A DNA stretch of 64,000 nucleotides from Bernardetia sp. (GTDB lineage Bacteria; Bacteroidota; Bacteroidia; Cytophagales; Bernardetiaceae), in the NCBI RefSeq assembly GCF_020630935.1, contig NZ_JAHDIG010000002.1:13395-77394 (forward strand), written 5' to 3'. The position numbers and the translations under genes were made by a program. Under the pieces are notes generated by a model. It was not told the origin of the DNA. It did not search any database and saw nothing but the letters and a program-made list of their open reading frames with translations. Below are positions 27 through 14,643 of the stretch, one piece after another. The number at the start of each line of letters is the position of its first letter. Position 1 is the stretch's first letter.

Positions 27-48
27 CTAATTTTTGGAGAAAAATTAG
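27..48. terminator. Small AT-rich hairpin at the 3' end of the lipoprotein gene
   Basis: A perfect 9-bp inverted repeat (CTAATTTTT/AAAAATTAG) with a GGAG loop overlaps the stop codon. It is AT-rich and no T-tract follows it in the direction of the gene, so its role as a terminator is doubtful. Confidence 0.25.
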
Positions 49-971
49 TTACTAATAATTTTATTACGGATAGATGCCACCAAACTATTGATAGATTGTA
101 CGTCGGAATCAGAAATATTTACAACTGTTTCTTTTGTGTCTTGGATGACGATTTCCCCATTTACAACTTCCATTTTGGGTTGTCCATCTTTTTCTACAAT
201 TTCAACGTTTTCATATACCTTTTGTAGCTCTTCCAAATCTGCTATAAAACCACTAAAGTTAGGTTTGTTTTTGTAAACATTTAATACTAACAGAATGCGA
301 TTCAAAACAAGTTTTTGTTCACCTATTTTTTCTTTGAGTTCGGCATTGTTACTTTCTTTATATACTAAAGAAGTAATATAGTTTGCTTCTAACCAACCTC
401 CAGTAAGAATAAGAATACTCAAATACTCACGCTTTTGCTTGCGAAGCTCTGTATTGATTTTTTCAAAGTTTTGGGTAGTGAGTTGTAGGAGAGAGTCTAA
501 GTCTTTATTTGATTGTGTAAGTTTTTTGATAGTGGTATAGTCGAAGAACTGACCAATATTAAGACCATCTGCCAATTTCTTAACAGAGTTGAGGTAGTTT
601 AGTGCATCTTGATTTTTTTCATAGATATTTGCATATCCCAAATCTGTACTATAAACTCCTAAATTGAGTGCTTTTTTATAGTTATTCGTATAGTTATCTA
701 CTAAATCTGGGTTACTCAGATTGTCTTTGTGATAATCTGTACCCAAGTCCTTAATCAAAATAGAAACTTCTAAAGGAGAAGGAATAGACTGAATAATGTC
801 ATTCATAACACCAGGAGCTAAAATATCTTCCTCTGCTGCTGCATCGGTAGTTCCTGCATTGGCTTCTGTCGTTCCTGTGTTTTCTTCTTTTGGCTTATCT
901 TCGCCTCCACAAGAAGTGAGTGAAAAGAGACCAAATGTTAGAATAAAGGCTATAAGTTGTAGTTTTTTCAT
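45..971 (-). CDS. Putative lipoprotein of unknown function
   Basis: I do not recognise the family. From the ATG at 971 the protein has 308 residues and begins MKKLQL, with a hydrophobic stretch and a lipobox LTSC (Cys at about residue 21), followed by a low-complexity Glu/Thr/Ala linker. That is a classical SPII signal, so the product is probably tethered to a membrane. An upstream in-frame ATG at 1040 would add 23 residues before the signal peptide and is less likely. The body is mostly predicted helical, with many Leu, Asn and Lys residues and no Cys after the lipobox. It is the last gene of the minus-strand run that contains the SiaB/SiaC-like genes and the ABC transporter, 165 bp downstream of the transporter. 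Gene reality is secure; function is unknown. Confidence 0.8.
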   Translation of the reverse strand: MKKLQLIAFILTFGLFSLTSCGGEDKPKEENTGTTEANAGTTDAAAEEDILAPGVMNDIIQSIPSPLEVSILIKDLGTDYHKDNLSNPDLVDNYTNNYKKALNLGVYSTDLGYANIYEKNQDALNYLNSVKKLADGLNIGQFFDYTTIKKLTQSNKDLDSLLQLTTQNFEKINTELRKQKREYLSILILTGGWLEANYITSLVYKESNNAELKEKIGEQKLVLNRILLVLNVYKNKPNFSGFIADLEELQKVYENVEIVEKDGQPKMEVVNGEIVIQDTKETVVNISDSDVQSINSLVASIRNKIISN

Positions 972-1136
972 AGAAAGCATTTTTTTCTCATATAAAGATT
1001 TGAGAGAGAGAACAGGGATAGAATAAAATGAATATTTCATATAAAAAAGTATTGGCGTATTGAAAATAATTTTAATGAACTCAAGTTTGATAAACTAAAT
1101 TAGTAAATCTATTAGAAAAGTCAAGTATAAGCCTCG

Positions 1137-4100
1137 TTATTTTTTACTCTTCTTAAAACTAATACTTCCTAGCATGTCAATTAATTTTTTGAGCCATTCG
1201 AAGTAGAGTGTGATGAGCAAAAGTATTGTCATTGCCCACATTACACAGACATTGAACCACATTGTATCGAAGTAATTGCCTAGAAAATGTTTTTCTGGAG
1301 CAAAGAAATGTGTACGATAATCCAAAGGATTTGAGATATTATTCGGATTACGAACAGCAAAGATAGGGTCGGTTTGTTGCACCAAAAATCCATCCCCCTC
1401 TACATATCTATCCTTTATCATTTCATTTTTTACTTGTGATTCTAAATACTCATTGGTGTATTTATTTTTTAGTTCTACTACAGATAGTTTGTTTGAAGGG
1501 TCTTGTTCCATAGCATTGATAATACTATCTTTTCGCTCGCCTGCCATAACAAACTTAGGTGTCATCACTTTTGAGCGTATCATTTCCAAAACTGCCTTTA
1601 GCTTATCTGCCATTGCTCTATCAAACTCTATGATTTGAAGTGTTTTTTCCAAATCGGTAGTTAATAGCTTTTGTTCTTCAGAAGAGAGTTCTAAATCTTC
1701 AGCTTGTAGTTTTAAGCGTTCCAGTATTTCATTTACTTTTTCGCTTTGCCACTCGTGCTTTAAAAGAGCAATATCACTTTGTAATAACACCATAACCGAA
1801 TCTGCATTTTCATTTTGTGCACTTTCAGCATAGTTGGCAGCACGGTCTAAAATTTCCTGCATCTTAGGAATCCAAAAGTTCGCTTTGTGTTGATACTGAC
1901 TGATTTCAAATTCTACATCAAAAATCTCTCTTTCGAACGGATTGTCTTTAAATTGCTCTACTGCTAAGGCTTCATACGCCCAACGAGATGCCATAAAATC
2001 AGCAATAAGTGGAATACGTCCCTTTTCTACAATAGCGTTGTTGAGTTGGTCAAATCTAAAAATTGCACCACTCAAAATCATTTGAGGAATCAAGAGAAGT
2101 GGAATTAAGATATAAACTGTAACAGCTGAGTTGAAAGAAGCCGAAATATTTAAACCCAAAGCATTGGCAAAACAAGAAATACTAAACAGTACGAGCCAAT
2201 ATTGCCAATACATACCTTGAATTTCAAGAATTGTATTTCCAATGATGGCAAAAGTAAAGGTTTGAATCGCCGAGAGTGTAAATAAAATAAGAATCTTAGA
2301 AGTTAGGTAACTTATTCTACTCAAATTAAGGAAGGATTCTCGCCTTTGAATTTTTCTATCCCGAATAATTTCCTCTGCACTGACAGTCAGTCCCATAAAG
2401 AGGGCTACAATAATAGCAATAAGCATATAGGCAGGGACATTGTCATTATATCTGAAAATATATTCAGAAGTATCTTTAGCATTTTTGAAACGCACAATAA
2501 CAGATAATAGAAGTGCAAGCAAAGGAGCTTCCAACAAATTTATCATCATGTATTGCGTATTGCTTATTTTAGAGAGAAAATCTCTCGTCGTAAAAATAGC
2601 AGCTTGTTTTATCTTTGATGGAATACTAAGCGAATTCGGTGGTGGCTCATTGACCGTATCTACTGGAGTGATAGAGTGAGTTTGTTTGTAAAGGTCATTC
2701 CATTCTGGTGGAGCAATTTTTCGTACTCCTGTATATTCTCCATATTCATTTACTACTCGTGCTTCAATAATATTGAAGAGAAGCTCTGGCGTAACCGTAC
2801 CACATGTTTGGCACTGTCCGTTATCACTTCCGACTTGATTTGTAGCACGCTTAAAGTATGCAATCGCCTCAACAGGATTGCCGTAATAGATAGGATAACC
2901 ACCAGTATCTAACAAAATCATCTTATCAAACATCTTATAAATGTCTGATGATGGTTGGTGAATAACCACAAAAATAAGTTTACCTTTTAAAGAGAGTTCT
3001 TTCAGAAGGTCAATTACATTTTCTGAATCTCTTGAGGACAGTCCAGAAGTAGGTTCATCTACAAACATGACAGCAGGCTCACGAATAAGCTCTAAAGCAA
3101 TATTCAAACGCTTACGCTGTCCTCCACTAATCATTTTATTCAGAACACTACCAACAGTAATATCTTTTATTCTATCTAATCCCAAACTTGCCAATACCTC
3201 CATCACACGAGTATCTAACTCTTCTTCACTAAGGTCTTTAAAACAAAGTTTAGCATTATAATACAAGTTTTGATAGACACTAAGCTCTTCTATAAGTAAG
3301 TCGTCTTGAGAAACATAACCAATTACGCCCTCTACTTTGTCAGATTCTGTGTGAATATTGAATCCATTGATTCTGACTTCTCCTTTATACGGCGTTTCTA
3401 AACCAGCCAAAACATTGAGAAGTGTCGTTTTTCCTGCGCCACTTGCTCCCATTATACTAAGAAGTTTGCCTGGACCTTCAGCAATATTTACATTTCGAAG
3501 TCCGATAGTTCCATCTGGAAAACGAAAATCTATATTGATGGCGTTAAAAGAGATAGGGTTTTGCTTTGCCGAATCATTGAAGCGAGTAACAAGATCACTA
3601 TAATAAAGAGGCGCACCTTTTGGTGTTTTGAAAACACTACCATTAGAGAAAAGAACAATCGTATCTTTCTTTACAAGCTGACCATTTAGGAAAATCTCAT
3701 CCTTACCATTATATTTTGTGAAATATAAATCAACACTTTCAAGGCGAATAAATACAATTTCACCATCTAAAAGACCAGAATCAATGAATTTTTTTCTACT
3801 TTCTACAGGAGGAGCTTCCTCATCGAAGACTAAGAAGTTTGGAGAATCAAACATCTGTTGAGAGTCTGTGGAAATAACAAAGTTTTCCATCAGCTCATAT
3901 TCCTTTTTTGGAATTTTAAAAATTTCAGAAGCTGTCTTGATAATTTCTAATCTGTGGCTACTAAAGTTTCTATCCACAGCCAACATCTCCAAAATCTTGA
4001 AGGTAACAATTACTTTTTGTTTTTGAGCAAGCGTTTTGTTAATATCTCTACAAACTCTTAGCGTACGCATACTATCCTTGAGCTTGATATTACCTCCTCC

Positions 4101-4457
4101 TTCTGCTGCTTTTTTTGCTTTTCTCTTCGCTTTTCGTATAGCTCTAGCTTTGTCTTTCTCTTGTTGTTCTATTTCTTCTGGCGTTTTGCCTTCTGTAATG
4201 ATTACTATATCTTCTGGATTTATTTCTTCCTTTTCTGCTGTGGCTTCTTCTCCTTTTTTATCTTTATTTTTTTCGCCATCTACTCCAAACTCTGCATATT
4301 GGTCATACAGTGCTACATACTCATTTAGCCTTTTTCTATCCAATTCTTGTTCGAAGAATCGGATGACAAAGTTACGTTCGGCTTCTGATACACCACCGTC
4401 TTGTTTTGAGACAACTGCAAATAATTGGGTTAGGGCTTTTAGTATTTCCTCACTCAT
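1137..4457 (-). CDS. ABCG-type ABC transporter fusion with TerB-like N-terminus
   Basis: This 1106-residue protein fuses an ATPase and a membrane domain in the ABCG order. Residues 1-60 and 125-195 look like a split TerB-like helical domain (VSKQDGGVSEAE), interrupted by a Lys/Glu-rich linker. Residues 230-275 resemble a small beta-rich FHA-like fold. The ATPase follows: Walker A GASGAGKTT near 337-345, signature SGGQRKR 444-450, Walker B VMFVDEP near 464, and the switch His at 500. A CxxC pair lies at 549/552. Membrane helices occupy about 630-800, then a 230-residue soluble insertion (about 840-1070) precedes a final helix. It lies 318 bp downstream of the SiaC-like gene on the same strand. 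By family such half-transporters export lipophilic or polysaccharide-like substrates; the substrate here is unknown. A regulatory link to SiaC is inference. Confidence 0.88.
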   Translation of the reverse strand: MSEEILKALTQLFAVVSKQDGGVSEAERNFVIRFFEQELDRKRLNEYVALYDQYAEFGVDGEKNKDKKGEEATAEKEEINPEDIVIITEGKTPEEIEQQEKDKARAIRKAKRKAKKAAEGGGNIKLKDSMRTLRVCRDINKTLAQKQKVIVTFKILEMLAVDRNFSSHRLEIIKTASEIFKIPKKEYELMENFVISTDSQQMFDSPNFLVFDEEAPPVESRKKFIDSGLLDGEIVFIRLESVDLYFTKYNGKDEIFLNGQLVKKDTIVLFSNGSVFKTPKGAPLYYSDLVTRFNDSAKQNPISFNAINIDFRFPDGTIGLRNVNIAEGPGKLLSIMGASGAGKTTLLNVLAGLETPYKGEVRINGFNIHTESDKVEGVIGYVSQDDLLIEELSVYQNLYYNAKLCFKDLSEEELDTRVMEVLASLGLDRIKDITVGSVLNKMISGGQRKRLNIALELIREPAVMFVDEPTSGLSSRDSENVIDLLKELSLKGKLIFVVIHQPSSDIYKMFDKMILLDTGGYPIYYGNPVEAIAYFKRATNQVGSDNGQCQTCGTVTPELLFNIIEARVVNEYGEYTGVRKIAPPEWNDLYKQTHSITPVDTVNEPPPNSLSIPSKIKQAAIFTTRDFLSKISNTQYMMINLLEAPLLALLLSVIVRFKNAKDTSEYIFRYNDNVPAYMLIAIIVALFMGLTVSAEEIIRDRKIQRRESFLNLSRISYLTSKILILFTLSAIQTFTFAIIGNTILEIQGMYWQYWLVLFSISCFANALGLNISASFNSAVTVYILIPLLLIPQMILSGAIFRFDQLNNAIVEKGRIPLIADFMASRWAYEALAVEQFKDNPFEREIFDVEFEISQYQHKANFWIPKMQEILDRAANYAESAQNENADSVMVLLQSDIALLKHEWQSEKVNEILERLKLQAEDLELSSEEQKLLTTDLEKTLQIIEFDRAMADKLKAVLEMIRSKVMTPKFVMAGERKDSIINAMEQDPSNKLSVVELKNKYTNEYLESQVKNEMIKDRYVEGDGFLVQQTDPIFAVRNPNNISNPLDYRTHFFAPEKHFLGNYFDTMWFNVCVMWAMTILLLITLYFEWLKKLIDMLGSISFKKSKK

Positions 4458-4775
4458 ATTCTATTTTTTATCTTTCTTTTGGTAGTACTAAATTATAATT
4501 TTTCTAGTCAGAAAACAGATTTACTCAAAAGGCATAAAAGGGCAAACTTCGAATAGAGAAGACTCTTAGCGAAATTACCCTATAAAAGTTAATTGACAAG
4601 AGACAACTAAAAATAGTTGATAATCAAAACTATAAGTCAAATGACAGGTAAACAAGCCAAAAACGTATAGTTGATTGAGATATAACATTGATTTTAAACG
4701 AGAGCCTATTTGCTTTGAGATTGTCGTTTAAATATTAAAGTCTGTATAACTCTAATTTTGCAATGATTTAGACTA
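4458..4775. other. Intergenic region between the SiaC-like gene and the transporter gene
   Basis: This 318-bp AT-rich stretch carries no convincing ORF. I saw a CAAAACTA motif near 4626 that could be a minus-strand -7 box (TAGTTTTG), but no well-spaced -33 partner. I found no strong terminator hairpin, so read-through from the SiaC-like gene into the transporter gene remains possible. Confidence 0.4.
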
Positions 4776-5138
4776 TTAATAGGTCTTGAAATCAAATGGA
4801 ATATCTACAAGGTCAGAAAACTCTTCACCAGCTTCTTCCATATCCTCGTCGTCTTCGTGGAAATACCAAATCACAGATGCGCCTTCAATTTCCTCTAGCT
4901 TAGAGAGAATATCTAAGATAAGTTTTGAAGATGCTGTGTTGAAGTATTCCAGCTTAAACATAAAGTTAGTATCTGGATTTACTTGATTTTCGTACTCATC
5001 TAGCCAATCTAAGATAGGCTGATAAAACTCGGCTGCATCTTCTGGAAGAGAACGTCCTGATATTTCAAATACTTGACGGTCTTTGTCTAAGATTACTTTT
5101 GGAGTGTCTTCTGTTGGTTCTAAGTTGATTACGTCCAT
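4776..5138 (-). CDS. SiaC family regulatory phosphoprotein (DUF1987)
   Basis: This 120-residue acidic protein matches the SiaC/DUF1987 family in length and pattern. The motif EYFNTASSK places a threonine at residue 68, the same number as the phosphorylated Thr68 of Pseudomonas aeruginosa SiaC. In that system SiaB phosphorylates SiaC, the PP2C phosphatase SiaA dephosphorylates it, and the unphosphorylated form activates the diguanylate cyclase SiaD. Here a SiaB-like kinase lies 110 bp upstream and a SpoIIE phosphatase precedes that, so the three-part switch is present. No diguanylate cyclase is encoded in this window, so the SiaC target is unknown. The C-terminus is strongly acidic (DEDMEEAGEE). 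Family assignment is firm; the output is inference. Confidence 0.9.
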   Translation of the reverse strand: MDVINLEPTEDTPKVILDKDRQVFEISGRSLPEDAAEFYQPILDWLDEYENQVNPDTNFMFKLEYFNTASSKLILDILSKLEEIEGASVIWYFHEDDEDMEEAGEEFSDLVDIPFDFKTY

Positions 5139-5248
5139 ATTATTTATAGAGTATATTTAGATTAAAATGCTAAATTGAATTGTAAGTTTAATATATGTGC
5201 TTGTATAAGCTTTATTTTTTATTTTTGAGCGATTCGTTCAATAAAGAA

Positions 5249-5839
5249 TTAATCGTCGCTGCTTTTACCTTTTGATTCTAAGTTTCTATCAATAGTCATG
5301 CGAAGAGAGAAGAAAGATAATTCGTCATTGATTTTCTCAAAGTCAAAGCGAATTTGATTCCCTGACTTACGAGCCATATCTATGAAACCAAGACCAGCAC
5401 CACCTTTTTCAGATAGTCCTTCCTTACCAACACCTTTCTTACTTTTAATTATTCGCTTGTATTCTTCTTTAAGACCAGCAGCATCTAACTTGTTTATTTC
5501 TGTCAAGCGATGTTCTAAATCTCCTACTTCGTTTGTAAAGAGTGGATTACCTGACAATACAAAATAATAATCATCAGTCTTAGCAAGAGAAAAAATAGCG
5601 TTATTTTTTCCGTATATCTCTTCTTGATAACTCTGTGAATGCTTAAAAATATTTTGGAGTAATTCTACCATGACATTAAACACTTTTGTTTTGACTTTAC
5701 GCTGTTCTCCAAAAGAGTCCATATTACGTTCTGCCATAGCCAAAACTGCCTTAGTTATCTCTTGGCTAAACTCACCTTCATATACTAAAAGCAAGTTTTG
5801 TTTGAGCATAACTTTATGTAAGTCATAAATATATTTCAT
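5249..5839 (-). CDS. SiaB family protein kinase (GHKL-type)
   Basis: This 196-residue soluble protein looks like the SiaB family, which uses a GHKL ATPase fold to phosphorylate SiaC on a Thr. An N-box-like helix is visible (VELLQNIFKHS), with the Asn and His that contact Mg-ATP. A glycine-rich ATP-lid segment GGAGLGFIDMARKSG follows near 147-161. There is no HisKA dimerisation domain, which is typical for SiaB and for anti-sigma-type serine/threonine kinases. The gene lies between the SpoIIE phosphatase (391 bp upstream) and the SiaC-like gene (110 bp downstream), all on the minus strand. The likely substrate is Thr68 of the neighbouring SiaC-like protein. A candidate promoter lies about 130 bp upstream. 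Confidence 0.9.
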   Translation of the reverse strand: MKYIYDLHKVMLKQNLLLVYEGEFSQEITKAVLAMAERNMDSFGEQRKVKTKVFNVMVELLQNIFKHSQSYQEEIYGKNNAIFSLAKTDDYYFVLSGNPLFTNEVGDLEHRLTEINKLDAAGLKEEYKRIIKSKKGVGKEGLSEKGGAGLGFIDMARKSGNQIRFDFEKINDELSFFSLRMTIDRNLESKGKSSDD

Positions 5840-6230
5840 AATGAGTGGCTTAAATATCTTGAGAGTATCTGTAAAATATTTTTAGTATTCGTATTAAAAA
5901 TTAGATAGCCCAGCTAAAAATAAACTAAAATATTTGCATTGATAAACCTTCTAATAAGTCAGTTTAACAAAAGTACATAGAAAATAATGTTCTAAGCAAA
6001 GGTTTTATCCAAATAAAAAGGGGCTTTAGCGAAAACACACTTAAATTAAAAGTAAGTTGTATTATTTCTCGTTTTAACTAAGAACTTTATAGAAATTAGT
6101 TTTCTACCTTTTTATTTTTAAACTTGCCTTTAAGTTAGGATAAATTCTTAGAAGAACAAAGGAAGATACAAAATAACTTTCAAAATTATCTCCATTTTTT
6201 TGAAAAAACGAAATCTTTAAGACAAACACA
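5840..6230. other. Intergenic region between the SpoIIE phosphatase and SiaB-like genes
   Basis: This 391-bp AT-rich stretch has no credible ORF. Apart from the candidate minus-strand promoter at 5968-6000 I see no strong terminator or repeat. Its length suggests that the SiaB/SiaC-like genes can be transcribed separately from the phosphatase gene. Confidence 0.5.
5968..6000 (-). promoter_or_regulatory. Candidate Bacteroidota-type promoter for the SiaB-like gene
   Basis: Read on the minus strand, TTTG at 6000-5997 is followed after 21 bp by TACTTTTG at 5975-5968. This fits the TTTG / TAnnTTTG pattern known for Bacteroidota housekeeping promoters. It would give a leader of roughly 120 nt before the SiaB-like start at 5839. 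The call rests on pattern alone. Confidence 0.4.
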
Positions 6231-9200
6231 TTAAAACTTTATACCAATCATTAATATATCATCAATCTGTTTGCTTGTTCCCATCCATTCGTTAAAGGAA
6301 TTTTCAAAGGTATTACACATTTCTTCCATATTTTGAGTTCTGTTTTCCATCAAAATTTCTCTTATTTGTCTTGCAGAGAATTTTCTGTCCTCTTCTCCAC
6401 CAAATTGGTCTGGTAAGCCATCAGAGAAGATATAAATAGAATCTCCTTTCGAAATTTTTTGACTATGATTTGTAAAGTCATCACTTTGACTATAAATAGC
6501 CCCTCCACCAATCGGTTTTCTATCGCCTTTAACTTGTATTAAGTCTCCTTCTTTTGGTACAATATATAGAGGGCGATGCGCTCCAGCAAACTCTAGTTTA
6601 TTCTGTTTTTGATTGATACGACAAAGCGCAATGTCCATACCGTCTTTTGTATTTCCTTCTGTATCTTGTCGTAGTGTTTGGGCAACACCTCGGTTGAGTT
6701 TGTCCAATATTTGTGCTGGTGAGAGAACTTCTTGGCTAGAGCTTAAAATCTCATTTAAAATAAAATATCCAATAAGAGAAATTAAAGCCCCCGGAACGCC
6801 GTGTCCTGTACAGTCCACAGCTGCAACATAAACATCGTCTCCTTTCTGTACATACCAAGGAAAATCTCCACTTACAATATCTCTAGGTTTGTATAGAATG
6901 AAAGAATCTGGGAAAATACTTTGCAAATGACGACTTTCTGGCAAAATTGCTCCTTGAATACGCCTTGCATAGTTGATACTTTCAGAAATTTTACGATTGG
7001 TTTCTCTGACTTCAAACTCAGTTCTTTTTCTTTCTGTAATATCATGAGAAACTACCAAAATAGATTCTAAATAGCCTTGGTCGTTGTATTCTGGAATAGC
7101 TGTGGTTTGCATCACACGTTCACCAGCCACAGAGTCAATTTCTAGTTCTCTTAATACTTTATTTCCTGTACGATTAACTTTAGCAGTAATTTCCTCAATT
7201 TTGTTAATGATTGGAGTAGGTAACTCTGAGCCTTTCATCATTTTGTTATTCAAAATTGAAGGTTCTAATCCTGTCAAATTTTTAATAGTTGGATTGACAT
7301 AAAAAATCTTTCCTTCTGGGTTCAGACGCATAATAAGGTCGGGAGAGTTTTCAGAAAGAGCCTGCATTTGTCCACGCATACGAGCTTCTTGTTCTGCACG
7401 CCTGCGTTCTGTAATATCTCTAGAGTTGATTACAATTCCTCTAATAGCAGGGTCTGACAGACGATTTGTACCTGTTGCTTCCAACCAAACAGGGTCGCCA
7501 TTTTTCTTACGATATTCATATTGAATAGTAATATTTTCGTCTGGATGTTCTAAAAGATTTTCAAAAAGCTGTCGGAAAGTGTCTTTACTTCCTTGTTGAA
7601 CATTTTCTACATCATTTGTTCCTATAAGTTCAGATTGTTCGTATCCCAAAATAGATTCAATAGACGGACTTATATAACGCACTTTTCCATTTTTTTCATA
7701 AATCGTAATTACCTCAGAAGCATTTTCTAAGAGAACCTGCATACGTTTTTGCGTTCGGTTTACCTCCAAAATTTGCTCTTCTAGTCTTGCATTAGATTTA
7801 CGCAATTCTTCTTGTGTAGATTCCATCTCTTCTGCATTTTGGCGCAAAACTTCTTGTTGTAGTTGAAGTTCTTCACTCATTTGTTGAGATTCTTGTAAGA
7901 GAGAAACTGTACGGTTATTTACTTTTATATTGAAGATTGTTCTTGCTATGATAATGCTAATCTCACGAAGGAAATTAATTTCAGTATCTGAAAACCTTGT
8001 CAGTCCTGCAAATTCCATTACTCCATATACTTTTTCATCTGTAATGAGAGGTACGATAAGTAGTGCCTTTGGTTTTTGTTCTCCCAAAAGTCCAGAACTA
8101 ATAGTCATATAATTATCTGGAATTTCTGTACGAAGAATAATGTCTTGTTCGATAGCAGCCTGCCCTACCAATCCTTCAGCAAAACGAAATGATTTTTTTA
8201 AGTATTTCCTTTTGTGGTAAGCATACGTCGCACGTATTTCAATGGTTTTTTCTTGGGTAATCTCGTCTTCCTCAACAACATAAAAACTACCTTGAACAGC
8301 ATTTATTTTTTCGGTAATAAAAGCAATTATTTTTTCAGAGAGAAGTTCAATAGTCTGATATTCACGCAAAATTTGTCCTACTTCTGCTACACCAGAAACA
8401 ATCCAGTTTCTTTGTTTGTCTTTGCTATCTGCATCTTGAATGCTATCTCGCATCGTAATAAGAGCATTACCAAAAGTATCATTTTTTCCCATAGGGCGAA
8501 AAGAAGCCTTATAGTTTCCTTTTCCTATTTGGTGGGCAAAATCAGCCGTTCTTTTGAGAGCTTGCACCAAATTATTGACAGCTTCTGTCATTTGTCCAAT
8601 CTCGTCCTTAGTTCCTTTTTTAATTTCTCTTGGCAACTCTCCTTTGGCTACAATCCCCAAAACTACTTGTAGGCGTTCAATAGGACGAGTTAGAATAGTA
8701 GAAAAGCCAAACGCAAGACCACCAGCAACAATAATAATAATGGCTCCTGTTAGGATAAAGGCAAGAACAAGCCCATTCAAATCACTTTCGACGGCACTCC
8801 TATTTATTTGTGTTACCATTCCCCAATCTACAATTTCTATATAATTCCAAGCAGCAAGCGTTTTCTCTCCTTTATAATCTATTGAAGAACCGTAACCAGT
8901 TGTTTTTTCTTTTAATACTCTTTCTAAACCCTCTGCTTTTCCATCTCCTATAATTTTGGGGGTATTGGGATTCTGCTCCTTCAATTTATTTAAAAAGGTA
9001 AGTGTAGTTCCACTTTTTTGTCTTCCCAAAACAATTTCACCTGTTTCTCCTAATCCTGTTCTATCAGCCACTACATCATATACTACTTGCATATCTAGTT
9101 CTACAATGATATAGCCTATAATCAAATAATTTTGCTCTGGGTCATAAATGGGTGCAATAGCTTCCATTCTTGGAGCATCGGAAAGTTCTTTTGCTATTCG

Positions 9201-9695
9201 TGGTTCATTGAAATAAATACCATCACCTGCATGGGTGAGAAGAACTTGATAACGGTCATAAATTCTACCAAAGACAAGGTAATCTGCTGTTGGATTTGTT
9301 TTGTATATAACTCTTCCATCCTTGTTTATCAACACTAAGTTTGGATAATTATATGTTTTTTGAAAGGGAAGTAAAGACTTATCTAGTTGATTTCTAAGTT
9401 GATTTTGTAGTGTGTCAGTATAACTTTTTTCATTAATTGTATTGACACGACGAAGAGATTGTAATACAGAAGAATACTCTTGAAGCAGGTTAACATGTGA
9501 ACTAATTTGAGAAAAAACACCTTGAATTTCTTTACTCTTTAGTGTATTGATTACCTTCAAGTTTTGCCAATAACGTAACTCAATAGCCTCTTTTCCACGG
9601 TAGTAGGAAACCCAACTAAGCACTAATGCAGCACCAAGCACTACTGTTAAAAGTAATAGCGTGATTTTATTACGAATGCTGAACCGATTGAGCAT
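6231..9695 (-). CDS. Membrane sensor serine phosphatase: Cache-HAMP-GAF-PAS-PAS-SpoIIE (SiaA-like)
   Basis: The 1154-residue protein begins with a membrane helix (about 11-30), then a long periplasmic Cache-like sensor (to about 305) and a second helix (about 308-335). A HAMP domain, a GAF domain (about 430-600), a coiled coil and two PAS domains (about 655-770 and 785-905) follow. The SpoIIE/PP2C domain fills the C-terminus, with metal-binding motifs VDCTGHGVPGALIS and FSDGLPDQFGGE and a DGMDIAL segment. The linker INYARRIQGAILPE recurs in three other phosphatases of this window. By analogy with SiaA it would dephosphorylate the neighbouring SiaC-like protein in response to a periplasmic ligand. 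The loop reads GDFPWY where relatives have GDFYW. The architecture is clear; the ligand is unknown. Confidence 0.92.
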   Translation of the reverse strand: MLNRFSIRNKITLLLLTVVLGAALVLSWVSYYRGKEAIELRYWQNLKVINTLKSKEIQGVFSQISSHVNLLQEYSSVLQSLRRVNTINEKSYTDTLQNQLRNQLDKSLLPFQKTYNYPNLVLINKDGRVIYKTNPTADYLVFGRIYDRYQVLLTHAGDGIYFNEPRIAKELSDAPRMEAIAPIYDPEQNYLIIGYIIVELDMQVVYDVVADRTGLGETGEIVLGRQKSGTTLTFLNKLKEQNPNTPKIIGDGKAEGLERVLKEKTTGYGSSIDYKGEKTLAAWNYIEIVDWGMVTQINRSAVESDLNGLVLAFILTGAIIIIVAGGLAFGFSTILTRPIERLQVVLGIVAKGELPREIKKGTKDEIGQMTEAVNNLVQALKRTADFAHQIGKGNYKASFRPMGKNDTFGNALITMRDSIQDADSKDKQRNWIVSGVAEVGQILREYQTIELLSEKIIAFITEKINAVQGSFYVVEEDEITQEKTIEIRATYAYHKRKYLKKSFRFAEGLVGQAAIEQDIILRTEIPDNYMTISSGLLGEQKPKALLIVPLITDEKVYGVMEFAGLTRFSDTEINFLREISIIIARTIFNIKVNNRTVSLLQESQQMSEELQLQQEVLRQNAEEMESTQEELRKSNARLEEQILEVNRTQKRMQVLLENASEVITIYEKNGKVRYISPSIESILGYEQSELIGTNDVENVQQGSKDTFRQLFENLLEHPDENITIQYEYRKKNGDPVWLEATGTNRLSDPAIRGIVINSRDITERRRAEQEARMRGQMQALSENSPDLIMRLNPEGKIFYVNPTIKNLTGLEPSILNNKMMKGSELPTPIINKIEEITAKVNRTGNKVLRELEIDSVAGERVMQTTAIPEYNDQGYLESILVVSHDITERKRTEFEVRETNRKISESINYARRIQGAILPESRHLQSIFPDSFILYKPRDIVSGDFPWYVQKGDDVYVAAVDCTGHGVPGALISLIGYFILNEILSSSQEVLSPAQILDKLNRGVAQTLRQDTEGNTKDGMDIALCRINQKQNKLEFAGAHRPLYIVPKEGDLIQVKGDRKPIGGGAIYSQSDDFTNHSQKISKGDSIYIFSDGLPDQFGGEEDRKFSARQIREILMENRTQNMEEMCNTFENSFNEWMGTSKQIDDILMIGIKF

Positions 9696-9841: not shown

Positions 9842-10630
9842 TTATAAATGTTTGGCTACCAAATCGGCTACTTTATCTACATATTCCTTTTCTGAATCGC
9901 TAAACTCTTTGAAGGAAGCCAATTCGATAACTCCTTTCACTGGATTTTCTTTTATTTCTTTCTCTGTATTGTCTTGCTGGATAGGTACAGCCAAAAGAAC
10001 AGAAGGTTGGCTCTCTCCCAAACCAGAAAGAATGTTGAGATAACCTTCTGGAATGTTTTTTATATATGTTTTTTGTCCTATTTTGGCTACTTGTCCTGCT
10101 ATTCCTTCACCAAATTCATAAAATAGTTTCTGACTATCAGGAAGTGCAAAAGCATACGCAGCTACCAATTCTATTCTCCTTATGTCCGTATCCGTTTGAG
10201 CAATATAGAAAGCTCCCGAAACTGCTTCTAATTGGCTACATACGTGCCTAAGAATATCATTTGATAACTGATTTTTATTTGAGTTTTTTAATAATTTGGA
10301 TAATTCTTCTCTTTGTTTGTTCCAGTCCAATACTTTTATTTGTGTATCATCATCATTTGTTTCTTCACTGACATATCTATCTACATAAATAATGTCTCCT
10401 TGTGCTTGTTTGCGCTGCCACTGCACATAAAAAGCAACCATCAGAATAAGCCCTAAAAGTAATTCAGAAAGAATAAAGCCCATCCAATAATTTCTATTAT
10501 CATCTAACAGACTAGCATCTTGGAGTGTCTTATTTAATTGAAGCAAAAGAAAGCCAGATACAAAAATACCAATGGAATATACTCCAATGGTGATTATAAA
10601 CCAAGTGCTATTTTGAAAGAATTTTTTCAT
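9842..10630 (-). CDS. Membrane-anchored GAF domain protein
   Basis: This 262-residue protein has two hydrophobic helices near the N-terminus (about 11-33 and 48-65), then a short charged linker and a single GAF domain (about 100-262). There is no recognisable output domain. The GAF resembles the one inside the adjacent SpoIIE phosphatase: both contain the order GxFY, AAYAF/ATYAY, F-EG-GQ, SGLGE/GLLGE, VP and a final FSD/E segment. It lies 146 bp upstream of that phosphatase gene and 81 bp downstream of the CheB-like gene, all on one strand. It may sense a small molecule or pair with the phosphatase GAF at the membrane; that is inference. A plain hypothetical GAF sensor is the safe reading. 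Confidence 0.82.
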   Translation of the reverse strand: MKKFFQNSTWFIITIGVYSIGIFVSGFLLLQLNKTLQDASLLDDNRNYWMGFILSELLLGLILMVAFYVQWQRKQAQGDIIYVDRYVSEETNDDDTQIKVLDWNKQREELSKLLKNSNKNQLSNDILRHVCSQLEAVSGAFYIAQTDTDIRRIELVAAYAFALPDSQKLFYEFGEGIAGQVAKIGQKTYIKNIPEGYLNILSGLGESQPSVLLAVPIQQDNTEKEIKENPVKGVIELASFKEFSDSEKEYVDKVADLVAKHL

Positions 10631-10711
10631 ATTTTCTTAACAAATTAAACTCATTTCTTATTTAATTGGGTTTGTACTAGCAAATACTGGCAGTAATACT
10701 GAGTTTTGATA

Positions 10712-11308
10712 CTACTGATAAATTTTGTTGAGCTTTAATAGAAACTCTATAATTTCATCTACTTTCAATTCATAATCAATATCTACTATATTTTTCGCTG
10801 CCATTGGCATTGCATTTATCATACTCTCTTCAATATCTTGAATTATGGTCAGACCCTTTCTATATTTTATTTTTTGCATTCCTACTGCTCCATCTTTGTT
10901 TGCTCCAGAGAGTAAAATACCTATCAACTTATCACGATATACATACGCTGCCGATTCGAAGGTAATATCTATTGCAGGACGAGAATTATTTATTAGTTCT
11001 TCTGTATTTAAAGAGATAGAATTTCCAAGTTCTACTGCCATGTGATAATTGGCAGGGGCTAAATATACAATTCCTTTTTTGATGCTTTCTTTATCTGTTG
11101 GCTCAATAATTTCTTTCTGACTTTTTATAGAAAGTGCTTCTACAAACCCATGGCGTACGTGTTTGAGCCTATGTAAACACAGAAAAATAGGCAATGGAAA
11201 CTCACGAGGAATAGAGGAAAGAATCTGAACCATAGGTTGAAAACTTCCAGCCGAACCTCCAATAACAACTGCCTTGTATTTGCTTATAAGATGTGTTTCT
11301 TTTACCAT
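10712..11308 (-). CDS. cheB: Stand-alone CheB-type methylesterase domain
   Basis: The 198 residues correspond to the catalytic half of CheB without the receiver domain. Visible family marks are the nucleophile region VVIGGSAGSF near the N-terminus, CLHRLKH (catalytic His region), VYLAPANYHM, and LLSGANKDGAVGM with the catalytic-site Asp, followed by a MINAMPMAA segment matching the canonical GMP-A motif. CheB removes methyl groups from glutamates of chemoreceptors, or deamidates them. No receptor, CheA or CheW gene is in the window. It follows the CheR-like gene by 60 bp, so the two probably form an antagonistic pair. Without a receiver domain it cannot be activated by the usual phosphorelay. 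The substrate is unknown. Confidence 0.88.
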   Translation of the reverse strand: MVKETHLISKYKAVVIGGSAGSFQPMVQILSSIPREFPLPIFLCLHRLKHVRHGFVEALSIKSQKEIIEPTDKESIKKGIVYLAPANYHMAVELGNSISLNTEELINNSRPAIDITFESAAYVYRDKLIGILLSGANKDGAVGMQKIKYRKGLTIIQDIEESMINAMPMAAKNIVDIDYELKVDEIIEFLLKLNKIYQ

Positions 11309-11368
11309 TTAGCTCAAAAATTAGCTACTAATAGTTTGAAAAAATAGGATAGTTTAAAATAATTAGTT

Positions 11369-12193
11369 TTAATCTTTAATTTTTTTGTAAATTTTTTCTT
11401 CATTATTTACTACAATAAACTTGTGTGCAATATCACACCAAATTAAAGATTCCTTCGAACCAATAACTAAGTAACCATATTTAAACAAACTCTCGTGGAG
11501 ACGGTGCAATACTTGATTTTGTAATGTTTGATTGAAATAAATCATTACATTTCTACACAAGACTAAGTCAAATTTTGAAAATACACTTCCCTGTACTAAA
11601 TCGTGTTTGCGATAGGAAACATTTTCTAAAAGAGCTTTATTGATAACAGCCTCTGAGCCTACTTCTGTATAATATTTTTCTAACGAAAATTTGCCTTGGT
11701 AGCGTAAATAATTTTTACGATTTACCTCCATGTGTTTGAGGGGATAGCGTCCTTCTTTTGCTTTTGCAATAATAGAACGGTCAATATCTGTGGCTACAAT
11801 TTTGGCTTTGTCTAAAATTCCCATTTCATCTAAAACGATAGACATAGAAACAATTTCTTCTCCTGAAGAACAGCCAGCGTGCCAAATACTGATTTTGTTG
11901 TGGTTGAGCATAATATTAGGAATGATATGCTCTTTCAAAACACGCCAAAATGTAGGGTCTCTGAACATTTCTGTAACATTTACAGTCAATTCGGATACAA
12001 ACTCTTCAAAAAAACCTTCTTTTGTATTCAGAATATGGATAAGTTCATCTACAGTTTGTAGCTTATACAAATCTAACATACGCTTAATGCGTCTTCTAAA
12101 CGAAGACATAGCATAATCTTTAAAGTTATAATCAAACTTATCTTTGATGAAAGTAGTCAGTTTACGTAGTTCAGCTATTTCTATTTCGCCCAT
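11369..12193 (-). CDS. cheR: CheR-type protein-glutamate methyltransferase
   Basis: The 274-residue protein has the CheR layout: an N-terminal helical domain (about 1-75, with RRIKRMLDLY) and a SAM-binding domain. The SAM loop reads WHAGCSSGEE, followed by IVATDID and the signature DLVLCRNVMIYFN. CheR methylates glutamates on chemoreceptors. Length and motifs match the full family. It is the first gene of a same-strand run with the CheB-like domain, the GAF protein and the SpoIIE phosphatase, and no chemotaxis receptor is encoded nearby. It could methylate a distant receptor or another helical signalling protein. Identification is firm; the target is unknown. Confidence 0.92.
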   Translation of the reverse strand: MGEIEIAELRKLTTFIKDKFDYNFKDYAMSSFRRRIKRMLDLYKLQTVDELIHILNTKEGFFEEFVSELTVNVTEMFRDPTFWRVLKEHIIPNIMLNHNKISIWHAGCSSGEEIVSMSIVLDEMGILDKAKIVATDIDRSIIAKAKEGRYPLKHMEVNRKNYLRYQGKFSLEKYYTEVGSEAVINKALLENVSYRKHDLVQGSVFSKFDLVLCRNVMIYFNQTLQNQVLHRLHESLFKYGYLVIGSKESLIWCDIAHKFIVVNNEEKIYKKIKD

Positions 12194-12445: not shown

Positions 12446-13558
12446 TTATTTCTTCCCATTCTGTTTAGACTGCTCAAAAGCTACTTCACGAAGTGCAGCG
12501 AGTGATTTTGCGCCCGACGCTCCATCTATTGCCTTGATAGCCAATTCTTTTGCCTCTTTGAGTGCGCTAGTCAGTTGTGCGTTGAGCGACTTAATTTGAG
12601 CATCTTGGTGTGCAATTTTTCCAGAAAGAGCTGTAATTTGGCGTTCTGCAATGCGTTTTTTGCCTTCGTTTTCTTTTGCTAACAAATCAGATTTAGATTT
12701 ATTTTCTCTCTGAATGACAGCTTTGGTCTTCTCATAAACACGTTTTGTTTCGTTGTCTAGTTTCTTAGGAAGTTCCTCTGCTTTTTGTGTTGCTTCTTCA
12801 TAGCTTTGCTCTTTTTCAGATAGAAGTTTTTCACGCAATGCCCACTCTTTTTCTTGCTCTTCTTTAAGCGTAGCAAGTTCTTCTGCACGAACTTTGGCAA
12901 GCTGTGCTGCCTCGTCTTTTATTTGCTGACGCTCCAAATTGCGCTGATAATGATAGGCTTCGTTTTCTCTGTCTAGGCTGGTTTGCCACTCTTTTTTACG
13001 TTCAGAAAGTGTTGAATTATGCAAGTCTTCGGCTTCTTCATAAGCCTTTTTAGCTTCCTCTTCGGCTTCTAATTGCTCTTTTTCAGTTTGAGTAATTATT
13101 TTCTCAAAAGATTCTGATTTCTCAATATATTCTCTAATAATGTCAGAAAGCGTGCTTTCTTCGGCTTCTTCAATCTGATGAAGCTCTAAAAGTTGGCTTT
13201 CAATCTCGTTGCTCTCTTCCTGCAAAACAGCCAAGTTTGCAGCTTCTTTTGTCAGATTATCTGAAAGCCCACTAATGGCAATACCAACATTACCTTTGAT
13301 GTTTTCAAATGCTGTAACTACGCTTTCTACCGACTGATAACCTCCCCCATTGAAAGAAACTGCTGGAGTTGTTTTTATAGGTTGTGCTTTGGTTTGCACC
13401 ACTTTTTGCACAGTAAGTCCTTTTTCTAAATTGCTTTGCAGTGTTCGGTTCTCGGTTTTAAGTTTTGTAATTTCTGCTTGGAGCGATTTATTTTCTCTTT
13501 CAAGAGACCTATATGCATCGATAATCTCTTTTTTTGTGTTTTTCATTGAAATTGCCAT
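12446..13558 (-). CDS. Coiled-coil protein of unknown function (paralogue A)
   Basis: The 370-residue protein is almost entirely Glu/Lys/Gln-rich heptad-type sequence, with no signal peptide and no membrane helix. A central tract near 160-280 has many EE, KE and AE repeats. It ends with a short conserved tail in which AQLTSALKEAKELAIKAIDG parallels the tail of the next gene. The two proteins also share the NxxLxxEKE / RExxLxEKE pattern, so they look like diverged paralogues. They are 119 bp apart on the same strand. I recognise no enzyme domain; a cytoskeletal, scaffold or gliding-related filament is possible, but nothing in the sequence proves it. Hydrophobicity is too regular for a random ORF. 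Confidence 0.8.
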   Translation of the reverse strand: MAISMKNTKKEIIDAYRSLERENKSLQAEITKLKTENRTLQSNLEKGLTVQKVVQTKAQPIKTTPAVSFNGGGYQSVESVVTAFENIKGNVGIAISGLSDNLTKEAANLAVLQEESNEIESQLLELHQIEEAEESTLSDIIREYIEKSESFEKIITQTEKEQLEAEEEAKKAYEEAEDLHNSTLSERKKEWQTSLDRENEAYHYQRNLERQQIKDEAAQLAKVRAEELATLKEEQEKEWALREKLLSEKEQSYEEATQKAEELPKKLDNETKRVYEKTKAVIQRENKSKSDLLAKENEGKKRIAERQITALSGKIAHQDAQIKSLNAQLTSALKEAKELAIKAIDGASGAKSLAALREVAFEQSKQNGKK

Positions 13559-13677
13559 AATACTAATATTTTTTGAAGATTTTGAAAGTGTTTTGAAATA
13601 AAAAATTTGATAGAGTAGATGACTACGGATTTTGGGCAGATTTTTTATTTATTCAAAAGGTTTTGGAATGAACAGAT

Positions 13678-14643
13678 TTATTTAGAAGAAGTAGGGTTAT
13701 CAAAAGCTCTCAATGAAAGCGACTGAACCTGTTCTAATGCGTGATTGAGCTGGCTTGTCAAGTTATCGATTTCTAATTTGCCAGTTTCCACGTTGAGTTT
13801 TAAATCTTCTATTTGTTCAGCAAAGATTTGTGCGTTGGCAGTTTCTTCTCTTTCCATAAGGTCAGCAACTATTTTTCCTTCTTTAGTAGCTTCATTAGCT
13901 GCTTTTTCTCTTGCTTTTTTGACTTCATTTTTGAGTTTTTCATCAAATTCTGCAATCAAAGTAAGATTTTTTTGGTGCTTTTCGTCTTTTTCAGACAATA
14001 CTTCCTCACGACCATTCCAAGCCTTTTCTTTTTCAGCTTTTTGCTCAGCAAGTTTGCGTACAGTTTGTTTTTTCTGTGCTTCAAAAGCATCAGTGGCAAG
14101 TTGTGTGTTACGCTGCTGGTCGTACTCAAAACGTTCTTCTTCTTGCTGACGAGTTTTCTGTGTGCGTTCTTCCGATTCTTTTACTTCTTTCTCAAAAAGA
14201 TTATTTTCCTTTTTCCAAAAAGCCTCATCTTCTTTGCGAGAGTTTGCCATCAGTTCCATTCTCTTTTGGTGGGCTTCTGTCAGTTCTGCTAGTTTAGATT
14301 CGTGTTCTTGTTTGAGCAAATACAGCGCATCAGCAGCAAGTTTTACTTGGTGTAAGTTTTGAAGCCTTTTTTTCTCAATTTCGATAGCATCCTCAATCTG
14401 TGAGCGTTTTTCAGATTCGTCTTGTAGTTTTTTAGACCATTGTGTAAGTGTATCAGCAAAAGTAAGTTGGAGCGAGCCAAGACCTTTTACAATGCTGTCT
14501 GGAGTGTAGGTACGAGCTGTCTGCAAAAGAGTAATTTCCTTTGCCTTTGCTACAGATTCTTCCTTCGTTATCACTTCGTGACGTTGGTGATAATAGTTTT
14601 TTAGGAGAGAAGAAAAGTCGTTTTTAATTTGATTCTTGTCCAT
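13678..14643 (-). CDS. Coiled-coil protein of unknown function (paralogue B)
   Basis: This 321-residue cytoplasmic protein is predicted to be nearly continuous coiled coil, rich in Glu, Lys, Gln and Ala. It shares with the downstream gene the motif AWNGREEVLSEKDEKH (the partner has WALREKLLSEKEQSY) and the C-terminal pattern LTSQLNHALEQVQSLSLRAF. It lies immediately upstream of paralogue A on the same strand and is divergent from proC. No catalytic or membrane domain is visible. Gene reality is supported by the paralogy and by the length of the open frame. The function is unknown. Confidence 0.8.
   Translation of the reverse strand: MDKNQIKNDFSSLLKNYYHQRHEVITKEESVAKAKEITLLQTARTYTPDSIVKGLGSLQLTFADTLTQWSKKLQDESEKRSQIEDAIEIEKKRLQNLHQVKLAADALYLLKQEHESKLAELTEAHQKRMELMANSRKEDEAFWKKENNLFEKEVKESEERTQKTRQQEEERFEYDQQRNTQLATDAFEAQKKQTVRKLAEQKAEKEKAWNGREEVLSEKDEKHQKNLTLIAEFDEKLKNEVKKAREKAANEATKEGKIVADLMEREETANAQIFAEQIEDLKLNVETGKLEIDNLTSQLNHALEQVQSLSLRAFDNPTSSK

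Follow-up and report, generated by a model that had tools for sequence, protein, structure and literature searches.

A Sia-type partner switch co-inherited with an ABCG-type transporter in the Cytophagales

In Pseudomonas aeruginosa, SiaABCD comprises a PP2C sensor phosphatase (SiaA), the kinase SiaB, the phosphoprotein SiaC and the diguanylate cyclase SiaD. SiaC uses its helices to bind the SiaD stalk, Thr68 lying at the contact, and phosphorylation of Thr68 prevents this binding (PMC8457831). Perturbation of the membrane is the reported stimulus of SiaA (PMC12834913); the structure of SiaC relates it to STAS domains, and DUF1987 proteins have been suggested to be common modulators of adjacent proteins, in a paper whose main text does not contain the word "transporter" (PMC8457831). 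HsbA and BgrV are STAS-type phosphoswitches with non-sigma outputs as well, and again the outputs are diguanylate cyclases (PMC8457831). Here we analyze a window of 64,000 nucleotides from Bernardetia sp. (contig NZ_JAHDIG010000002.1, positions 13,395 to 77,394, in assembly GCF_020630935.1 of 4.75 Mb, 153 contigs and 97.4% completeness) in which a PP2C sensor phosphatase, a SiaB kinase and a SiaC with Thr68 in the same Y-x-N-T context resemble this system, but the next gene encodes an ABCG-type transporter where P. aeruginosa has SiaD, and we argue that the switch probably acts on that transporter.

Two described systems join such parts to transport. MlaB, a member of a separate STAS family, binds MlaF, the nucleotide-binding domain (NBD) subunit of the phospholipid transporter MlaFEDB, by a helical face with Thr52 central, and a Thr52 phosphomimetic weakens the pull-down; the authors leave phosphorylation control of a STAS-regulated ABC transporter as a question, and their paper reports no experimental evidence for MlaB phosphorylation (PMC7367683). 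The Bernardetia locus likewise pairs a STAS-fold protein carrying a central Thr with an ABC transporter, though here the NBD is fused to the membrane domain, in contrast to the separate MlaF subunit, and binding is proposed from the genes. In Mycobacterium tuberculosis, the half-transporter-type ABC exporter Rv1747 carries two FHA domains and shares an operon with the Ser/Thr kinase PknF, but there the kinase phosphorylates the transporter itself, and the relevant sections of the paper describe no SiaC-type partner switch (PMC3908365). A link between SiaC and an ABC transporter was not reported in the open-access literature we searched. To our knowledge, partner switches described so far do not include one that drives transport. 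The parts are known; their combination, a partner switch of the Sia type whose output is probably an ABC exporter, is new to that literature.

The SiaC of the window matches its Pfam family (PF09345) at E 2.2e-39 and 134.3 bits against a cut-off of 24.5, and aligns with the solved structures 6kko and 6k4f (E 7e-11) over a range that takes in the Thr68 region. SiaB scores 168.7 bits against a cut-off of 85 with the NCBIfam model SiaB_fam_kinase (NF038262) and matches 6kko chain A at E 7.5e-13. The SiaA-like protein has the Pfam domain order dCache-HAMP-GAF-PAS-PAS-SpoIIE/PP2C, in which the dCache match is sub-threshold (39.6 bits, cut-off 45) and the GAF-PAS-PAS portion distinguishes it from the P. 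aeruginosa sensor; the 229 residues at its C-terminus align with the known phosphatase structure 6k4e (E 2e-30), and the PP2C motif residues GDF, DCTGHG, SDG and DD are invariant in all 58 aligned rows, the window's included. Judged by sequence, the locus thus has the makings of a SiaABC partner switch, with a Thr68 SiaC, a SiaB-family kinase and a SiaA-type PP2C with metal-binding acidic residues. By analogy, we propose SiaB and SiaA as the putative kinase and phosphatase of SiaC Thr68. The locus nonetheless lies outside the P. aeruginosa SiaABCD equivalogs: it scores below the cut-offs of those models (SiaA 205.4 of 700 bits, SiaB 83.4 of 225, SiaC 74.1 of 150) and has no SiaD cyclase match. 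An earlier note, made from the letters of the window, had placed SiaA-, SiaB- and SiaC-like proteins on the minus strand, with Thr at exactly position 68 of SiaC; the coordinates, strands and identities of the genes are confirmed, as is the position of the Thr.

The arrangement is conserved well beyond Bernardetia. We examined 134 transporters, the window's and those of 133 fetched loci among the matches listed (the lower-ranked rows being sampled in part), three of them outside Cytophagales; one genome with an ABC match (G043) was left out of the transporter tree. For 67 transporters, SiaC is encoded no more than 2.1 kb upstream and on the same strand; 62 have no SiaC there, and five with less than 700 bp of upstream sequence could not be judged. 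All 67 linked transporters, the window's included, fall into a single clade of 79 (support 1.0), whose other 12 members comprise eight without SiaC upstream and four with too little upstream sequence; in a neighboring paralogue group (n=51, own support 0.25), none of 50 judgeable members has SiaC upstream. The linked loci, with SiaA-SiaB-SiaC-ABC on one strand, come from 14 families of Cytophagales, and because of this conservation and the transporter tree a chance arrangement is excluded. The earlier note had named a gene order that is not conserved in relatives as a refuting result, and the outcome was the opposite. A second set of loci from named records, which overlaps the first and is not independent of it, gave SiaC less than 700 bp upstream in 71 of 75 judgeable cases and at 1.2 kb in one more, after five of 80 loci with less than 700 bp of upstream sequence were dropped. 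Since only seven of 296 genomes drawn from the phylum match the transporter at 1e-100, four of them in Cytophagales (window genome included), the transporter is largely restricted to this order.

SiaC and the transporter also travel together when their genes do not adjoin. The 62 distinct transporter-linked SiaCs, all with Thr68, are monophyletic among 98 sampled (support 0.83), where the 35 unlinked SiaCs are a sample made up mostly of top-scoring rows and the window genome's own; linked and unlinked proteins differ at many positions around Thr68 and on the helices. Among 148 Cytophagales genomes, 75 contain both the SiaC subtype and the transporter clade, three the transporter only, one the SiaC only and 69 neither, with the subtype taken at a best identity of at least 61% and the next best rows of other genomes at 50% or less. 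The four exceptions look like losses at contig edges: in G082 a partial SiaC adjoins the transporter, in G051 pieces of SiaC lie at contig ends, in G120 the transporter match begins at contig base 2, and in G111 the contig breaks off 450 bases beyond SiaC, in the direction in which the transporter is expected. In seven of seven genomes in which the clade transporter and SiaC do not adjoin, this subtype of SiaC is found at another site (61-79% identity), each time with SiaB beside it. Because three families (f8, f15 and f19) have members with both linked types alongside members with neither, the SiaC subtype and the transporter have probably been lost jointly more than once.

The transporter itself was described in the earlier note as a fused ABCG type directly downstream of SiaC, and this is borne out by Pfam matches to ABC_tran (4e-30) and ABC2_membrane (9.8e-16) and by its predicted fold. 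In a full-length model (predicted local distance difference test, pLDDT, 80.1; predicted template modeling score, pTM, 0.66), a helical TerB-like part (~1-195) with a low-confidence loop at ~60-92 is followed by an FHA-like part (~205-291), the NBD (~301-540) and an ABC2 membrane domain from ~615, in which a mostly helical insert of ~220 residues (~840-1060) precedes the last predicted membrane helix and, given ABCG topology, would be extracytoplasmic. The best Foldseek rows for this model are ABCG5/G8 (7r88_A, E 4e-24, TMt 0.74), ABCG2, ABCG1 and plant ABCGs, and the modeled protein fits the ABCG-type exporters in that the NBD precedes the ABC2 membrane domain in a single chain of ABCG fold. 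The N-terminal domains claimed by the earlier note fared unequally, the FHA-like one being well supported by the models and the TerB-like one moderately. Neither TerB nor FHA gave a Pfam match in the N-terminus at 1e-3, and Foldseek on a model of residues 1-306 (built from 54 aligned sequences, pLDDT 84.9) returned no row at E of 0.001 or below, its best rows being FHA domains with probability ~1.0 and E 0.03 at best. VIA-align on the same region found many FHA chains at Z ~6-7.7 (for example 5yyx, Z 7.3, root-mean-square deviation (rmsd) 2.0, 76 residues aligned), and for the helical part placed first 2h5n, which we take to be a TerB protein (Z 10.2, rmsd 3.5, 119 aligned; Foldseek E 0.28), and second the tellurite resistance protein 2ou3 (Z 9.2, rmsd 5.0, 137 aligned), in alignments whose ranges overrun the domain and at Z values that helical parts often reach. 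The canonical FHA phosphothreonine pocket needs a conserved Arg and an SxxH motif; no column of the FHA part here is an invariant or nearly invariant Arg or His, and conventional phosphothreonine recognition by this domain is therefore improbable.

We consider it fairly likely that the locus encodes a partner switch of the Sia type whose output is an ABC exporter, SiaC gating the transporter via Thr68, and we infer the binding of SiaC to the transporter, the sign of control and the docking site. On a signal, the membrane sensor phosphatase SiaA would strip the phosphate from SiaC Thr68; unphosphorylated SiaC would dock via its helical face, Thr68 central, on the cytoplasmic part of the transporter, either the TerB-like part or the NBD, and set transporter assembly or ATPase activity; and re-phosphorylation of Thr68 by SiaB would free SiaC from the transporter. 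The transporter, with its helical insert, and the lipoprotein encoded downstream of it may together export a substrate from the inner membrane. Co-inheritance, gene order and the lack of a GGDEF match in the genome support the interpretation first offered in the earlier note, that SiaC phosphorylation controls the transporter or some other partner in place of cyclic di-GMP synthesis.

Several observations weigh against a gated transporter. Thr68 is invariant in the 35 unlinked SiaCs too; the Fisher value for co-occurrence, 2e-37, ignores shared ancestry; and the gap of 318 bp between SiaC and the transporter makes their separate transcription possible. Promoter and terminator predictions were of no help, being no more numerous than in shuffled sequence (46 against 46.2 and 6 against 5.5), some promoter types lying outside the scan. 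Paralogous transporters without an adjoining SiaC share the N-terminal architecture, so the N-terminal domains are not there for SiaC alone. Clade-specific residues, among them Q19, Y51 and R169 (at position 169, 94% of linked rows have Arg and 94% of unlinked rows have Glu), are weakly enriched in transporter residues 1-205 (5/29 against 11/264 conserved columns, p 0.013), in a comparison whose unlinked set omits 12 of 62 unlinked transporters (eight clade members and four outliers); the reverse comparison is enriched there as well (p 0.047), so that fast evolution of this region could explain the signal, and these positions point only weakly to the first 205 residues as the docking site. Partial correlations of distance matrices between SiaC and the transporter domains, computed on 40 non-redundant loci with two control sets, ran from 0.05 to 0.21, the highest belonging to the putatively extracytoplasmic insert, beyond the reach of SiaC; these values, low for every domain, do not locate a contact.

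Other readings of the locus would direct SiaC elsewhere. Since SiaC activates SiaD, a diguanylate cyclase, in P. aeruginosa (PMC8457831), the SiaC of this locus might still drive the synthesis of a cyclic dinucleotide by a cyclase that went undetected or has diverged strongly, which we regard as extremely improbable: a GGDEF search (PF00990) positive in eight of 14 control genomes gave no match in the window's assembly and matched one of the 148 Cytophagales genomes, at 36.2 bits and above the family cut-off, in a genome without a SiaC match. The earlier note saw no diguanylate cyclase in the gene run and named one acting on SiaC from elsewhere in the genome as a refuting result; none was detected in the assembly, and in the order they are almost absent. 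SiaC is found in 95 of the 148 genomes, and because it is widespread where GGDEF is nearly absent, SiaC proteins of Cytophagales must have partners other than GGDEF cyclases. The switch of this locus might act, for example, on its GAF protein, on a sigma/anti-sigma pair or on an enzyme encoded elsewhere; the transporter would then be a passenger, co-regulated through the operon and the stimulus it has in common with the switch. SiaC paralogues without an adjoining transporter are common (seven SiaC matches in the window genome, at least 27 in each of genomes G047 and G102), from which it follows that SiaCs of this order have other partners, and the CheR-CheB-GAF genes described below are conserved beside the switch too. 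However, the linked SiaC subtype tracks the transporter clade even after the genes have separated, and of 58 linked loci 11 lack CheR, 12 lack CheB and 11 lack GAF; we judge the passenger account unlikely.

A different use of the same parts would have the transporter's FHA domain read phospho-Thr68 of SiaC, the phosphorylated form being the active one. The domain does adjoin a Thr-phosphorylated protein family, and Rv1747 provides the precedent of an ABC exporter with FHA domains beside a Ser/Thr kinase gene (PMC3908365), but phosphate at the equivalent position weakens the SiaC-SiaD interaction and a phosphomimetic weakens MlaB binding (PMC8457831; PMC7367683). Together with the lack of a nearly invariant Arg or His, and of any clade-specific residue, in the FHA part, this makes such a reader very unlikely, and docking of unphosphorylated SiaC remains the form of transporter control that we favor.

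The conserved block is longer than SiaA-SiaB-SiaC-ABC and, in the order of transcription on the minus strand, reads CheR, CheB, GAF, SiaA, SiaB, SiaC, ABCG transporter and lipoprotein (Table 1). The span of 1137-9695 given in the earlier note was too short, as 45-1040 and 9842-12193 belong to the block as well. More than 9 kb of upstream sequence was available for 58 linked loci, not counting the window: all 58 have SiaB, 54 a PP2C gene, 47 GAF, 46 CheB and 47 CheR, and 43 keep the complete order from CheR through SiaC. Of the 65 linked loci that extend more than 1.2 kb downstream, 57 have a homologue of the lipoprotein right after the transporter; so do two of six clade loci without SiaC and four of 52 other loci, three of these four being clade members with truncated upstream sequence. 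Seven clade transporters without SiaC, each with more than 9 kb upstream, all lack CheR, CheB and GAF, and one retains a PP2C gene.

Table 1. Genes of the conserved block, in order of transcription, with window coordinates
Feature	Coordinates	Strand	Evidence
CheR methyltransferase, 274 aa	11369..12193	(-)	Pfam CheR 4.7e-44
CheB methylesterase domain without receiver, 198 aa	10712..11308	(-)	Pfam CheB_methylest 7.6e-45
GAF protein, 262 aa, hydrophobic N-terminal segments	9842..10630	(-)	Pfam GAF_2 2.4e-7
SiaA-like sensor phosphatase, 1154 aa	6231..9695	(-)	Pfam; 6k4e structural match
SiaB-family kinase, 196 aa	5249..5839	(-)	NCBIfam SiaB_fam_kinase; 6kko chain A
SiaC phosphoprotein, 120 aa, Thr68	4776..5138	(-)	Pfam SiaC; 6kko/6k4f
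ABCG-type transporter, 1106 aa	1137..4457	(-)	Pfam ABC_tran and ABC2_membrane; structure model
Predicted lipoprotein, 331 aa, directly downstream of transporter	45..1040	(-)	Conserved position

The CheR of the window is the sole CheR match in the assembly, and because the usual partners of CheR and CheB went undetected in the genome (no match to MCPsignal or CheW), SiaA or the GAF protein are candidate substrates. The Glu/Gln-rich pattern of the SiaA coiled coil is largely retained with or without CheR in the fetched stretch, and it neither supports nor excludes methylation of SiaA. We offer only as a tentative and rather doubtful suggestion that CheR and CheB methylate SiaA or its GAF neighbor and thereby tune the SiaABC phosphoswitch that would gate the exporter; if true, a single eight-gene locus, widespread in Cytophagales, would contain a receptor-methylation-tuned, STAS-switched pump.

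Variation on this organization was also seen. None of the other six SiaC loci of the window genome (L067-L072) has the transporter in the ~14.7-19 kb fetched around each; four have an adjoining SiaB, and one is a divergent 254-residue frame. In one locus (L137) SiaC and the transporter are preceded by three SiaB matches in a row, and a PP2C gene was not detected. A single, suggestive case (L247) comes from the same class but a different order: at 2986-7060, a related transporter of 47% identity and a SiaB-SiaC pair are convergent and 57 bp apart. SiaC domains occur in open frames of 324-348 residues in six further places (L305, L306, L307, G041:C2, G070:C1 and G097:C16), possibly as fusions with another domain. 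Beyond the block in the window, 12446-14643 encodes two coiled-coil-rich-looking proteins, neither with a Pfam match, and a phmmer search with the protein at 12446-13558 found no match across 61 linked loci.

For the Cytophagales, where SiaC is common and GGDEF domains are nearly absent, the locus offers SiaC a concrete, dedicated candidate partner. As a kinase, a phosphatase, a STAS-like protein and a transporter are inherited together in it, the question of phosphorylation control raised for MlaFB becomes directly testable. Our findings suggest, from the co-inheritance of switch and pump, that the export pumps of these cells may be under a form of on/off control that has gone unrecognized.

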